NCBI GenBank assembly: GCA_028866575.1
Contig: JAGWHU010000004.1
Coordinates: forward strand, 1 to 64,000
Direction of reading: 5' to 3'
DNA length: 64,000 bases
Origin: Candidatus Micrarchaeota archaeon
GTDB taxonomy: Archaea; Micrarchaeota; Micrarchaeia; Micrarchaeales; Micrarchaeaceae
Positions within the stretch are counted from its first letter, which is position 1, and the number at the start of each line of letters is the position of its first letter. Shown here one piece after another: positions 14,785 through 62,939 of the stretch. The notes under the pieces are model-generated. The model did no database searches. It was given only the letters and a program-made list of their open reading frames with translations, and was not told the DNA's origin. Position numbers and translations under genes: made by a program.

Positions 14785-15543
14785 GTGGGCGGCATGCCCA
14801 GCAAGCTGGCATCGGGTGTCATCGTGGCGAGCAAACCAAAGCCTATGGAAACTGGGATAGACGGCCTTGACAACATACTAGTAGGGGGTATCCCCGAAAA
14901 GAGCCAGATCCTGCTCATGGGCGGGCCCGGCACAGGCAAGACCCTGATGGGGTTCGAGGTGCTGTACAACTGGGCCAGGAAGGGAAGGCCGTGCGCGTTC
15001 ATAGCTCTTGACGAGCGCCCGGACGACATACTCGAGAACGTCAGGAACACCTTTACTGGAATGGATGACATACACGAGCTGATAGAGAAGCGCCTGCTTG
15101 TCATAGGCGGGTACGAATCCGCGCTCAAGATAGCCACGAACGCTGAGGACGAAAGCAGCTACTCCATGGGCAACCTGATGTCCGAGATCGAGGGGATAAT
15201 AAAATCCATAAACGCCGAAATAGTCGTGGTGGATTCGCTCTCCTTCCTGAAGCTCATGCTCGGCAAGTCCCTCCTGTACAACAAGTCCATTTCCTCACTC
15301 GTGTCTAACCTGCGCAGGCTGGAAACCACCTCGATACTTACATTGAGCATACCGTACTACGACAGGAAGAAGCTGAAGTTCGGGCAGGAGCTGGTGCTGT
15401 TTGATGGCGTGATGGTATTGTACAAAGGCACGGGCACGGATGATGGAAAGCTCACGATGGAAATTGTAAAGATGCGCGGCAACAGGAGCGACGCCCTTTT
15501 CTCAGGCTACTCCATAACCAGCTCCGGCATAAAGTTCAAGTGA
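14785..15543 (+). CDS. KaiC-like single-domain RecA-superfamily ATPase
   Basis: A 252-residue protein with one KaiC/RadA-like ATPase domain. It opens with TGIDGLDNILVGGIP, the usual entry to archaeal KaiC-like proteins, then Walker A GGPGTGKT (residues 46-53), an LDERP segment near 77, and a Walker B strand ending in Asp150 (EIVVVDSL). It lacks the second ATPase domain and the phosphorylation loop of cyanobacterial KaiC, so a clock role should not be assumed; archaeal members are thought of as signalling ATPases. The start is GTG 14785 or ATG 14794. The Cys-rich membrane protein begins 24 nt downstream and the DHH phosphoesterase overlaps that gene, suggesting one operon. Confidence 0.88.
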   Translation: MGGMPSKLASGVIVASKPKPMETGIDGLDNILVGGIPEKSQILLMGGPGTGKTLMGFEVLYNWARKGRPCAFIALDERPDDILENVRNTFTGMDDIHELIEKRLLVIGGYESALKIATNAEDESSYSMGNLMSEIEGIIKSINAEIVVVDSLSFLKLMLGKSLLYNKSISSLVSNLRRLETTSILTLSIPYYDRKKLKFGQELVLFDGVMVLYKGTGTDDGKLTMEIVKMRGNRSDALFSGYSITSSGIKFK

Positions 15544-54132: not shown

Positions 54133-57087
54133 ATGAATCCTATGGATGATCAGGAGCCAGCGGACGATTTGGTTATAGGCTCCGGAGGCAATGGCAAATC
54201 CGGCAATGACTCCTATTCCGGTAACCCCAAGCAGCAGGGCCAGCCCACGCCGCACCAGATAATCGACGAAGGGAAGCCGCTTCCTGTAATACCCATAATA
54301 GCAATTGCCGTCATACTAGTGATAGGCGGCGCCGCATTCCTTTTCCTGAAGGGCTACATACTTGCGGCCCCGACAACCACTTCAACCTCGACGATATTGT
54401 CCAGCGTGAGCCCGATAAGCGGGTGCCAGATAATAGCAAGGTCAGGCAAGTACTTCGTCCCGTCGGACATAAAGACCGCGATACAGGGCGGCGCATGCAT
54501 AAACGTCTCAGCAAGCAACGTCAACATAGCCTGCGACAACAGCAGGATAGTTGGTTCAGGGCCGTTTCTGATAGTGCCCCCGTTCACCTACGGCATACAG
54601 ATAATGAACGACAGCAATGTCACCGTGACCGGGTGCAAGATACTCAATTTCTCCTATGGGATATACTCCGTATCTTCCAACGGCGTCGGGCTTTCCAACA
54701 ACAACGTCTCTCTGAACTTCGTTTCCAACATATACCTGAACAATACCCACAACAGCACAGTGCGCAACAACTACATGTCCAAGGCCTCCAGCACGCAGGG
54801 TTCGATGTTCCTCACAAACGGCACCAGCGGCATAACGGTACTGAACAACACGATACAGTACAACAACTATTACGGCATAAACATCAACGCCTCTAACAAC
54901 ACGTTCATAGACAACTTCCTGAACGGGACCCAGTACTCGTTCAGGTGCAGCGTGCCAAACAGCTTCCCGATAAGCAGCAGGGCATCCGGAAACGTATGCG
55001 CAAACAGCACCGGCTGCGGCTTCCTGGAGTGCAGGAGCGTCAACATACCTGCGAACATATCCAAGCTGGTGCTATCCAGCAGGATAAGCAGCTGCGGCTC
55101 GGTAGTAAACCCCGGCACGTACGAACTTGCATCGGACATAGACATGAGGAACTTCATCAACATATCCAACATACTGTCGGTGCTAACCCCTTGCATAAGG
55201 GTTGCATCCAAAAACGTGGTGATAAACTGCAACGGCTTCGGAATATACAACTCCACGGTTGCGGTTAGCTCATCAGGCATCCAGAACGTGACAATCAAGA
55301 ACTGCAAGATCAACAATGCAGATGTGGGCATTCTGCTGAACGGGGCGACCTCCTTCAGCATACTCAACACCTCGTTCAAGAATGAGGGATACGGGATAGA
55401 GATGTACAACTCCAGCCTTAACGACCTGCTCAACGTTACCGTAACATCCGATACGAATGCCGTGCTACTGTCCTCCTCGTTCTCCAACCTTCTGCAGGAC
55501 GTCAGGATACTGAACAACACATACGGGGTTTACCTCCAGAACAATTCCTACTCCAACACCTTCAACAAGGCGACGATACTGAACAACTCAAAGATGGACG
55601 TCTTCGCGACCCAGGACTCCGCAAACATCTCCTACAACCTTATGAGCTCAACCACATGCGGCTACACCACCGCGCAATGGGCCACGTGCAAGCACTTCAT
55701 AGGGCCTGCAATGGCATATGTGCCGTTCTCCGAGTGCGGGACCATAAGCCAGCCGGGGAACTACATACTGCAGTCAAGCATAGCAAACGGGTACGGGCAG
55801 TGCATTCACATCACGGCAAGCAACGTAACCCTCTCCTGCGCTGGCCATGTAGTATCTGCAGGGCCAACAATTCAGGGCCCGGGTATGATGGTGTCGGATG
55901 CGCACAACGTAACAATAAACAACTGCGATTTCCTCGCATTCCCGACATCTGTCAATGTAACGCATTCTTCGCTCGTCACCCTTGAGGGGATAGGCTCCCA
56001 CAATTCGAACTACGGCATCGTGCTCGACAACGTGGAAAACGGCGGCATATACAACAGCAGCGTAAACGCAACTAACAACGCGAGCATAATGCTCTACAAC
56101 ACAAGCAACGTCAGGATAACTAACGCCATAGTCTCCTATGGGCAGAAGCGCAACATAGCGCTGCTGGTCAACAATTCGCAGAACAACACGATAGACAACT
56201 CGATAGCGTCGCACAACTACATAGGCATGGAATTGTCGGGCAAATCCTCAAACAACACCATAATGAACAACACGATGCAGTCTGACACAAAGCTCGATTA
56301 CATGTGCATAGGCAACGGCGGGATAGATTCGGAGAAAGGCGGGATAAACTACGGCACCACCAAGTCTGGCTGCCACTGGCTTGCTGCGATAACCCCGATA
56401 CATCCGAAGCCGGAGTGCATTGCTGCTTCAGAGCCCAGCCTCCTATACCTGACGCAGGACTACGAGTATACGACAGGCTCGACATGCTTCACCCTGTTCG
56501 CAAACACGTCAACGATAAACTGCAACGGCCACACGATAATAGCAACGAGCGGGGGCACGTTTGCCGAATTCAAGAACTCGCAGGATTCCAGGATCGAAAA
56601 CTGCTACCTCAAGGACTTCGCCGATACAATAACCGCTACGAACTCCACGGTTACCGTATTCAACAACACCGTATACGAAAGCGCCCCCGGAAGCATAGCG
56701 ATCCACCTCAACGACTCAAGGCTCGGCGTAACCGTGCAGAGCAACAACGTGTCAACCTCGGGCACCGGCATATACCTGTCAAACATAGGCTCGGGATCGC
56801 TCGAGGACAATCTGGTAAGCAGGGCGAACACCGCATATTACCTGCATAACGTCACCGCGATGACCATAAAGGGCGACACCGCATATCCTGGCGCCTACTT
56901 CGGGCTCATACTGAACGATTCCCTGACCAACATACTGCAGAACAACAACATGTTCTCTTCAGGCACGGGCATCTCCTGCCTGCTCAGGTCGCAGGGCCGC
57001 TCCAACAACACCGACCTAGGCAACAACGCATGCAATAGCCAGTCCAACTGCCTTTGGCTGCAAAGCTCATCGCAGCAGTGCCCGTAA
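54133..57087 (+). CDS. Membrane-anchored surface protein with four right-handed beta-helix modules
   Basis: The 984 residues have a short cytoplasmic N-terminus, a membrane helix (about 52-73), a Thr/Ser-rich spacer and an outer region with NosD/PbH1-like repeats. Four modules start with a pattern like C-x-x-I-SxPGxYxL...CI.ITASNVTLSC.GH and then run of short turns of N-N-T-I and N-x-x-G. Many N-x-S/T sequons and paired cysteines occur. Similar domains in carbohydrate-active or adhesin proteins bind sugars. No catalytic residues stand out. Confidence 0.82.
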   Translation: MNPMDDQEPADDLVIGSGGNGKSGNDSYSGNPKQQGQPTPHQIIDEGKPLPVIPIIAIAVILVIGGAAFLFLKGYILAAPTTTSTSTILSSVSPISGCQIIARSGKYFVPSDIKTAIQGGACINVSASNVNIACDNSRIVGSGPFLIVPPFTYGIQIMNDSNVTVTGCKILNFSYGIYSVSSNGVGLSNNNVSLNFVSNIYLNNTHNSTVRNNYMSKASSTQGSMFLTNGTSGITVLNNTIQYNNYYGININASNNTFIDNFLNGTQYSFRCSVPNSFPISSRASGNVCANSTGCGFLECRSVNIPANISKLVLSSRISSCGSVVNPGTYELASDIDMRNFINISNILSVLTPCIRVASKNVVINCNGFGIYNSTVAVSSSGIQNVTIKNCKINNADVGILLNGATSFSILNTSFKNEGYGIEMYNSSLNDLLNVTVTSDTNAVLLSSSFSNLLQDVRILNNTYGVYLQNNSYSNTFNKATILNNSKMDVFATQDSANISYNLMSSTTCGYTTAQWATCKHFIGPAMAYVPFSECGTISQPGNYILQSSIANGYGQCIHITASNVTLSCAGHVVSAGPTIQGPGMMVSDAHNVTINNCDFLAFPTSVNVTHSSLVTLEGIGSHNSNYGIVLDNVENGGIYNSSVNATNNASIMLYNTSNVRITNAIVSYGQKRNIALLVNNSQNNTIDNSIASHNYIGMELSGKSSNNTIMNNTMQSDTKLDYMCIGNGGIDSEKGGINYGTTKSGCHWLAAITPIHPKPECIAASEPSLLYLTQDYEYTTGSTCFTLFANTSTINCNGHTIIATSGGTFAEFKNSQDSRIENCYLKDFADTITATNSTVTVFNNTVYESAPGSIAIHLNDSRLGVTVQSNNVSTSGTGIYLSNIGSGSLEDNLVSRANTAYYLHNVTAMTIKGDTAYPGAYFGLILNDSLTNILQNNNMFSSGTGISCLLRSQGRSNNTDLGNNACNSQSNCLWLQSSSQQCP

Positions 57088-61664: not shown

Positions 61665-62939
61665 ATGGAAAGCGGAATAAAGCAGAGGGAGAATACTGGA
61701 ATAGCGGGATTAGACGAAATCCTCGGCGGCGGCCTTGAGAAAAACAAGGTCTTTCTTGTGGCCGGGGAGGTCGGGACTGGCAAGACAATCACGTGCCTGC
61801 AATTCATATATGCTGGCTTGAAGAACGGGGAAAATGCGATTTACATGACTGCAGGGGACAAGCCGGAGGACATCCTTGGCAGCGCAAGGGCCATGGGCTG
61901 GGACCTGGAAGGGTACATCAGGGACAGAAGGCTTTTCATAATAGACATGTCCCCGTATAGCTTCAAGGTCGAAGTCGGCGGAATGCTCAGCGCAAGGGAA
62001 ACAATGGAGTACCTCTACAAGCACGTGACCGGCAACAACGTCGAAAGGCTGGTAATGGACTCGCTGGAGCTTATTCCCGCTTCGATAAGCGGAAACGACG
62101 TGGAGGAATTGAACTACCTGAGGGATTTGGTAAACCAGATAGAAAACAACCTGAACTGCACCACGCTAATAACCTCCATAATACCGTCAGGGACGAAAAA
62201 GCTGAGCATGTTCGGCATACTGGAGCACACGGTAAGCGGGATAATAATGCTGACAATAGACGATGAGAAGTCCCAGAGGCTAATATCCGTCAGGAAAATG
62301 AGGGCCGACGGGATAAGCCTGACAAGGCACGCATATGCAATAGAGAAAAACAAAGGGATAGTCCTTGAAGACCTCAAGATGGTGGACACCGGCCCGATGG
62401 AAATAGGCAAGAAAATACCTGATTTTTCCTTGGAGGCGCTGCATCATGCAAAGGAGGTACCAATAAACTCCTCATCATACCATGGGAAATGGCTTGTTGT
62501 CGTATTCTACCCGGGGGACTTCACGTTCATATGCCCTACGGAGCTGGAGGAGCTTGCGGACAACTACGACAAGTTCGTGTCGCTGGGCGCGGAAATAATA
62601 AGCATAAGCATGGATACCGTGTCATCGCACAAGGCGTGGTATGACGCCTCGCCAGCAATCAAGAAGATAAACTATCCCATGGGATCCGACCCAAACGGTG
62701 AGGTATCCGGATTATTCGGCATATACAAGCAGGGCAAGCCCGTGGCAAGGGCCACATTCGTCTTCGATCCAGAGGGCCTTCTGGCAATGATGGAGATAAA
62801 CGAGGACAGCGTCGGCAGGAGCACGGGCGAGCTACTGAGAAAATTGACTGCGGCCAAATACGTTATGGAGCATCCCGGGGAGCTATGCCCTGCCAGCTGG
62901 CAGCCCGGAAAACAGACACTGAAGCCAAAGCCTAATTAA
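61665..62939 (+). CDS. KaiC-like ATPase fused to 2-Cys peroxiredoxin
   Basis: A single 424-residue frame. Residues 1-235: TGIAGLDEILGGGL, Walker A GEVGTGKT (34-41), Walker B around LVMDS (Asp132), a KaiC-like RecA domain. Residues about 246-424: an AhpC/Prx1 peroxiredoxin with peroxidatic Cys290 in FTFICPTEL, catalytic Arg362 and resolving Cys408 in GELCPASW. Peroxiredoxins reduce H2O2 and organic peroxides. A GGTGG sits about 11 nt before Met245, so a free peroxiredoxin could also be made. pyrE follows by 28 nt. Confidence 0.88.
   Translation: MESGIKQRENTGIAGLDEILGGGLEKNKVFLVAGEVGTGKTITCLQFIYAGLKNGENAIYMTAGDKPEDILGSARAMGWDLEGYIRDRRLFIIDMSPYSFKVEVGGMLSARETMEYLYKHVTGNNVERLVMDSLELIPASISGNDVEELNYLRDLVNQIENNLNCTTLITSIIPSGTKKLSMFGILEHTVSGIIMLTIDDEKSQRLISVRKMRADGISLTRHAYAIEKNKGIVLEDLKMVDTGPMEIGKKIPDFSLEALHHAKEVPINSSSYHGKWLVVVFYPGDFTFICPTELEELADNYDKFVSLGAEIISISMDTVSSHKAWYDASPAIKKINYPMGSDPNGEVSGLFGIYKQGKPVARATFVFDPEGLLAMMEINEDSVGRSTGELLRKLTAAKYVMEHPGELCPASWQPGKQTLKPKPN

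Follow-up and report, generated by a model that had tools for sequence, protein, structure and literature searches.

A KaiC-like domain fused to a tail-less 2-Cys peroxiredoxin in Micrarchaeota, encoded in both domain orders

Introduction

KaiC-like ATPases occur widely among archaea, and to our knowledge most of them have no known function. KaiC and peroxiredoxin are the two families of proteins most familiar from daily rhythms; AhpC is usually five-fold in symmetry and KaiC six-fold. In the KaiC of S. elongatus, E77 activates the attacking water, E78 is a Mg ligand and E183 is a third glutamate near the gamma-phosphate (PMC2777353), and the E77Q/E78Q variant is left with 22% of the total ATPase (PMC5007536). 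Hexamerisation of KaiC is driven by Mg-ATP, unhydrolysable analogues being sufficient (PMC3823767). As for the peroxiredoxins, E. coli AhpC requires its C-terminal tail (residues 172-187) both to form a stable reduced decamer and to be regenerated by AhpF, and the truncated AhpC1-172 keeps its kcat with a Km that rises from 1.44 to 9.45 uM (PMC5124861).

The window analysed here is the whole stretch of 64,000 nucleotides from a Candidatus Micrarchaeota archaeon (contig JAGWHU010000004.1), in which a first-pass annotation had noticed a KaiC-like domain joined in one frame to a 2-Cys peroxiredoxin. A literature search by title and abstract returned no description of a KaiC-peroxiredoxin fusion, which does not prove its absence from the literature. 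What is new is the architecture, its two domain orders and the paired losses within it, both domains belonging to known families.

Results

The fusion of a KaiC-like domain to a full typical 2-Cys peroxiredoxin was confirmed as genuine by its open frame, which runs for 424 aa without a stop, and by its Pfam matches; the positions first assigned to Walker A, Cys290, Arg362 and Cys408 agree with those found here (Table 1). The KaiC model PF06745 matched residues 10-234 (E = 4.5e-49, 167.3 bits against a curated cut-off of 26.6), followed by AhpC-TSA PF00578 at residues 247-374 (E = 1.6e-33, 115.8 bits against 26) and 1-cysPrx_C PF10417 at residues 397-421 (E = 2.2e-05, 24.8 bits against 21.1). 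Foldseek matched the KaiC half to the KaiC-like PH0186 and to KaiC CI, and the peroxiredoxin half to Salmonella AhpC. Furthermore, AlphaFold gave two well-folded domains for the whole protein (mean pLDDT of 85.7), the placement of one relative to the other being uncertain (pTM of 0.61). The product is predicted to be a two-domain enzyme, in which a thioredoxin-fold 2-Cys peroxidase, probably active, is carried on a KaiC-type nucleotide-binding domain.

Table 1. Coordinates of the fused gene and of its domains and key residues in the window
Feature	Coordinates	Strand	Evidence
Fused gene, KaiC-like domain and AhpC/Prx1-type 2-Cys peroxiredoxin	61665..62939	+	translation, Pfam, G001 orthologue, order-swapped G188 relative
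KaiC-like domain, residues 10-234	61692..62366	+	Pfam PF06745, PDB KaiC CI match, fold match to PH0186/KaiC CI
Walker A GEVGTGKT, residues 34-41, intact in 3/3 fusions	61764..61787	+	alignment
Residues 64-65 (G-D), aligned with KaiC CI E77/E78	61854..61859	+	alignment; roles from PMC2777353
Residue 172 (Ile), aligned with KaiC CI E183	62178..62180	+	alignment; PMC2777353
K211-M-R213, aligned with trans-acting K224/R226 of KaiC CI	62295..62303	+	alignment; PMC2777353
Short interdomain linker, residues 235-246, containing GGTGG and Met245	62367..62402	+	
AhpC-type peroxiredoxin domain, residues 247-421	62403..62927	+	Pfam, fold match
Peroxidatic Cys290 in P283-xxx-T287-xx-C290 (PGDFTFIC)	62532..62534	+	alignment
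Catalytic Arg362, invariant in 43/43 unfused relatives	62748..62750	+	alignment
Resolving Cys408, Cys in 41/43 unfused relatives	62886..62888	+	alignment
C-terminus KPN-stop, at the site of the LVGKI tail in unfused relatives	62928..62939	+	

An internal start in the linker had also been suggested, from which a free peroxiredoxin could be made. Both of its elements are present (GGTGG at 62381-62385 and the ATG of Met245 at 62397-62399), but the junction of the fusion in a congeneric genome (G001, see below) reads ACG GTA AGG GTC and has no start codon. Conservation of the internal start is thus unsupported, and this source of a free peroxiredoxin was rejected. The suggestion is further weakened by a standalone AhpC-type peroxiredoxin elsewhere in the genome of the window (L002:1606-2169, G000:C2), which has an intact LVGKI tail and adjoins a tetratricopeptide-like repeat gene. 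A standalone KaiC is likewise encoded in this genome, within the window at 14848-15516.

The source genome of the window is a draft of 1.13 Mb in 53 contigs (97.5% complete), and the gene might on that account be taken for an assembly chimera or a frameshift artefact. The probability of such an origin is practically negligible, because an independent congeneric genome (Ca. Micrarchaeota UBA8261, DUIS01000048.1, loci L005/L092; G001) encodes the same KaiC-peroxiredoxin order at 47% identity, its copy being truncated at Walker A by the contig end only, and we consider an artefact ruled out by this orthologue. Moreover, the clade-specific KaiC type of the same-order fusions was found elsewhere only in a fusion of swapped order. 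The latter (Ca. Micrarchaeota NC_groundwater_1742, JACRGD010000007.1, loci L053/L088; G188) comes from the same class as the genome of the window and a different family, and its frame of ~420 aa runs from peroxiredoxin to KaiC, with identities to the window fusion of 58% for the peroxiredoxin and 42% for the KaiC domain. An absence of the fusion from all close relatives, which the first-pass annotation would, together with assembly evidence of a join, have held against the gene, is not what was found: the search with the fused sequence recovered the same order in the congener G001 and the reversed order in the distant G188. The fused set thus comprises three sequences, all of them from draft genomes.

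Within an order-level set of 164 genomes, the fusion was confined to the genus of the window, and G188 was the sole addition in a Micrarchaeota set of 301 genomes. When the KaiC part was used as the query in Micrarchaeota, the three fusions were recovered with E-values of 2e-51 or better, compared with 1e-28 for the other KaiCs. A scan for this KaiC type in one genome per species yielded 80 loci, with a peroxiredoxin within the locus only in the fusions of the two relatives; the loci of the 78 unfused KaiC relatives, which extend up to 5 kb to each side, contained none. No match across both domains was detected in samples of the genomes around MAGs labelled as Nitrososphaerota (G305, 349 genomes), Woesearchaeota (G312, 327 genomes) or Aenigmatarchaeota (G310, 156 genomes). 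Likewise, none of 72,556 plasmid records covered 80% of the fusion query, and viral contigs queried with the fusion and with the KaiC part gave no relative. Given the thresholds and the sampling of these genome searches, a fusion involving another type of KaiC could have escaped detection. Candidates with long KaiC frames (G198, G207, G278, G199, G264, G295, G044 and G1114) were discarded for having no peroxiredoxin in frame, as was a long-frame peroxiredoxin of 352 aa in G211, which showed no recognisable second domain, just an upstream open frame. In another genome of the same family as that of the window (L254, G014:C29:11800-14800), unfused KaiC-like and peroxiredoxin-like genes adjoin in divergent orientation, ~700 bases apart, their proteins each being just 28% identical to the domains of the fusion. 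The unfused KaiC type that comes closest (41% identity) was located on bacteria-labelled marine MAG contigs (L089-L091), where a second KaiC-like stretch lies ~450 bases downstream of the KaiC.

The residues of the KaiC domain were mapped by alignment to S. elongatus KaiC CI. K40 and T41 of Walker A and K211 and R213 of the trans finger are retained in 3/3 fusions. As for the catalytic acidic pair (E77/E78 of KaiC CI), its first acid is gone from all three. Position 64, equivalent to E77, is E or D in 112 of 115 unfused relatives and G/S/H in the fusions, and position 172, equivalent to E183, is E or D in 98 of 115 and I/V/H in the fusions, although the 115 relatives are not independent and three fusions from one clade represent few events. 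Position 65, equivalent to E78, is acidic in all the fusions (D/E/E). Moreover, since the window fusion has D in place of E at this Mg ligand and the Walker B Asp is replaced by Glu in G001, nucleotide binding itself may be weakening. From these residues, the KaiC domain is predicted to bind ATP and to assemble, with poor hydrolysis. A cysteine at position 165, found in 3/3 fusions, is not specific to them, as it also appears in 39/115 unfused relatives.

The peroxiredoxin domain retains the PxxxTxxC motif, the peroxidatic Cys, the catalytic Arg and the resolving Cys in 3/3 fusions. An LVGKI-like C-terminal tail was present in 47/48 unfused cellular relatives and 20/20 relatives from viral contigs, and in 0/3 fusions; in the reversed fusion of G188, the KaiC domain begins at the site where this tail would be expected. 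The fusion also scored below the cut-off of the NCBIfam AhpC equivalog TIGR03137 (206.9 vs. 272 bits). With regard to possible reductants, one thioredoxin gene (G000 C8:18557-18862) and two Pyr_redox_2 (pyridine-nucleotide oxidoreductase) genes were found over the cut-off in the genome of the window. On the viral side, 28 IMG/VR contigs (L198-L225) encode AhpC-type peroxiredoxins, and the LVGKI tail is found in each of the 20 with scores of 170 bits or more.

The KaiC domains of the three fusions formed one clade with a support of 100/99 (99 in a larger quick tree), and their closest kin were marine, Bathyarchaeota and myxococcal-labelled sequences, not the other Micrarchaeota KaiCs. The fused peroxiredoxin domains also clustered, with a support of 92/87 (47 rows) and 88/95 (58 rows). 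When each fused row was left out in turn, the support of the remaining pair was 67, 96 and 99, and the grouping is therefore likely yet unproven; it is not decisively supported, and the fused rows have longer branches that may contribute to it. The KaiC branches of the fusions are long as well. Because the KaiC clade is firm and the peroxiredoxin clade moderately supported, a single KaiC/peroxiredoxin association is probably present in both orders, and the pairing would have persisted when the domains changed places. Most simply, one association was formed and its order changed later, or genes that were already partners were fused twice; under either origin the pairing is independent of domain order.

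The fusion contains a single KaiC domain (10-234), with no tandem second domain or CII phosphorylation sites, and it scored far below the level of the clock KaiC model (81 vs. 546 bits). Furthermore, no match to KaiB (PF07689) was found in the 97.5% complete genome of the window. A clock role is thus unsupported, since KaiB was not found, the KaiC domain is single and the hydrolytic glutamate is lost, and this reading was rejected.

The genes next to the fusion encode an HD protein and PyrE in the window, and cation transporter-like and glycosyltransferase-like proteins in G188. The HD-domain gene (PF01966; 60541-61530, + strand), directly upstream of the fusion, has a GC content of 33-38% compared with 50-55% in its surroundings and is possibly a recent acquisition. 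The pyrE gene (orotate phosphoribosyltransferase, TIGR00336; 62968-63504, + strand) starts 28 bases past the stop of the fusion; co-transcription of the two is possible, and pyrE is not beside the other two fusions. A scan for sigma-70 promoters and terminators gave results near chance level, the sigma-70 model being unsuited to archaea. Elsewhere in the window, a protein of 984 aa (54133-57087, + strand), encoded upstream of an ATP-dependent DNA ligase, carries a segment like a membrane anchor at its N-terminus, together with recurrent N-rich stretches that recall a parallel beta-helix.

Discussion

An oligomer scaffold was among the roles first proposed for the ATPase, and it is the one favoured here: a KaiC ring that binds ATP and hydrolyses it poorly would replace the tail as the scaffold of a working peroxidase. 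We hold this reading tentatively, at slightly less than an even chance. It is argued for by the pairing in three genomes, one of them reversed, with clades that outlast the order change; by the replacement of the residues equivalent to E77 and E183 while those for ATP binding are retained; by the absence from 3/3 fusions of the tail that stabilises the decamer in E. coli AhpC; by the thioredoxin and the two pyridine-nucleotide oxidoreductase genes; and by the two well-folded domains of the AlphaFold model. Against it stand the small number of fusions, three from draft genomes with the G001 copy truncated, the possible weakening of nucleotide binding (D in the window, E in G001), the indecisive peroxiredoxin clade with its longer-branched rows, the uncertain interdomain placement, and the different symmetries of five-fold AhpC and six-fold KaiC. 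A way round the last of these may be that loss of the tail leaves the peroxiredoxin less bound to five-fold symmetry and thus easier to reconcile with a six-fold KaiC ring.

According to the scaffold reading, ATP binding would assemble the KaiC domains into a ring, and this ring would substitute for the missing tail in holding the peroxiredoxin dimers in an active oligomer, making the peroxidase activity, or a peroxide-sensing output, dependent on ATP. From family knowledge and the conserved residues, peroxide would oxidise Cys290, which would then be linked by a disulfide to the partner's Cys408, and the oxidised enzyme may be recycled by thioredoxin, on the assumption that this reduction proceeds without the tail. 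Its physiological role would be peroxide handling coupled to ATP status, alongside the standalone peroxiredoxin. That Micrarchaeota have a new class of antioxidant enzyme, an ATP-gated peroxiredoxin of this kind in which a hydrolysis-dead KaiC ring stands in for the AhpC tail and makes assembly ATP-dependent, seems rather unlikely; if true, peroxide handling would be linked to energy charge, and the pairing would have survived the exchange of the two domains' positions.

Other roles of the KaiC domain were also considered. The ATP-binding domain might be the output of a redox-sensing signal protein and not a scaffold, with the peroxiredoxin sensing peroxide and the KaiC domain altering its nucleotide state or its partners in response to the oxidation state relayed to it. 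A peroxidatic site that is fully conserved beside a separate peroxiredoxin for bulk detoxification would suit a sensor, as would the shared C165, and archaeal KaiC-like ATPases are proposed as signal hubs in a title cited in PMC6393860. However, the presence of C165 in unfused relatives, the lack of a conserved neighbour or partner gene between the window and G188 loci and the lost hydrolysis residues make this an unlikely account. A still less probable one is that the KaiC domain is a decaying, functionless passenger on a peroxiredoxin that works as usual. The equivalents of E77 and E183 were replaced differently in each lineage, which resembles relaxed constraint, and the long KaiC branches and the Walker B change in G001 point the same way; yet all three fusions, at ~40% identity, preserve Walker A, K211 and R213, the entire KaiC domain is open-framed in three lineages and the pairing persists in both orders.

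The first-pass annotation had further supposed that ATPase signalling may be coupled directly to peroxide sensing or detoxification; this would mean a KaiC-like ATPase coupled to the peroxidase through active hydrolysis, perhaps in timekeeping. Membership of the KaiC family and the acidic residue kept at the E78 position (D/E/E) favour hydrolysis, but with the E77 and E183 equivalents absent from all the fusions, one KaiC domain devoid of CII phosphorylation sites and KaiB not found in the genome, neither ATPase coupling nor clock signalling is borne out, and we judge this version very unlikely. A fusion of KaiC with peroxiredoxin would naturally unite two families of daily rhythms, and there is no sign of a rhythm here. 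The covalent partner offers a direct clue to the function of one archaeal KaiC-like ATPase; since the pairing occurs in both domain orders, the two domains can be argued to work together, and the joint loss of the hydrolytic glutamates of KaiC and of the ring-locking tail of AhpC provides a testable idea of how they may cooperate.

With respect to known systems, the cyanobacterial KaiC CI is homologous over residues 10-234, with the equivalents of K52, K224 and R226 retained, whereas the fusion has one KaiC domain, no CII phosphorylation sites or catalytic glutamate, and a genome in which KaiB was not found. The single-domain archaeal KaiC-like ATPases (such as PH0186, PH0284 and SSO2452) share with it the fold, Walker A and the K-M-R finger; unlike them, the fusion carries a peroxiredoxin and has no acidic residues equivalent to E77 and E183. 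Finally, compared with AhpC, the fusion has an added KaiC domain, no LVGKI tail and a score under the TIGR03137 cut-off, whereas its peroxiredoxin is 41-42% identical to Salmonella AhpC in the fold comparison, with both cysteines, the PxxxTxxC motif and the arginine all present.
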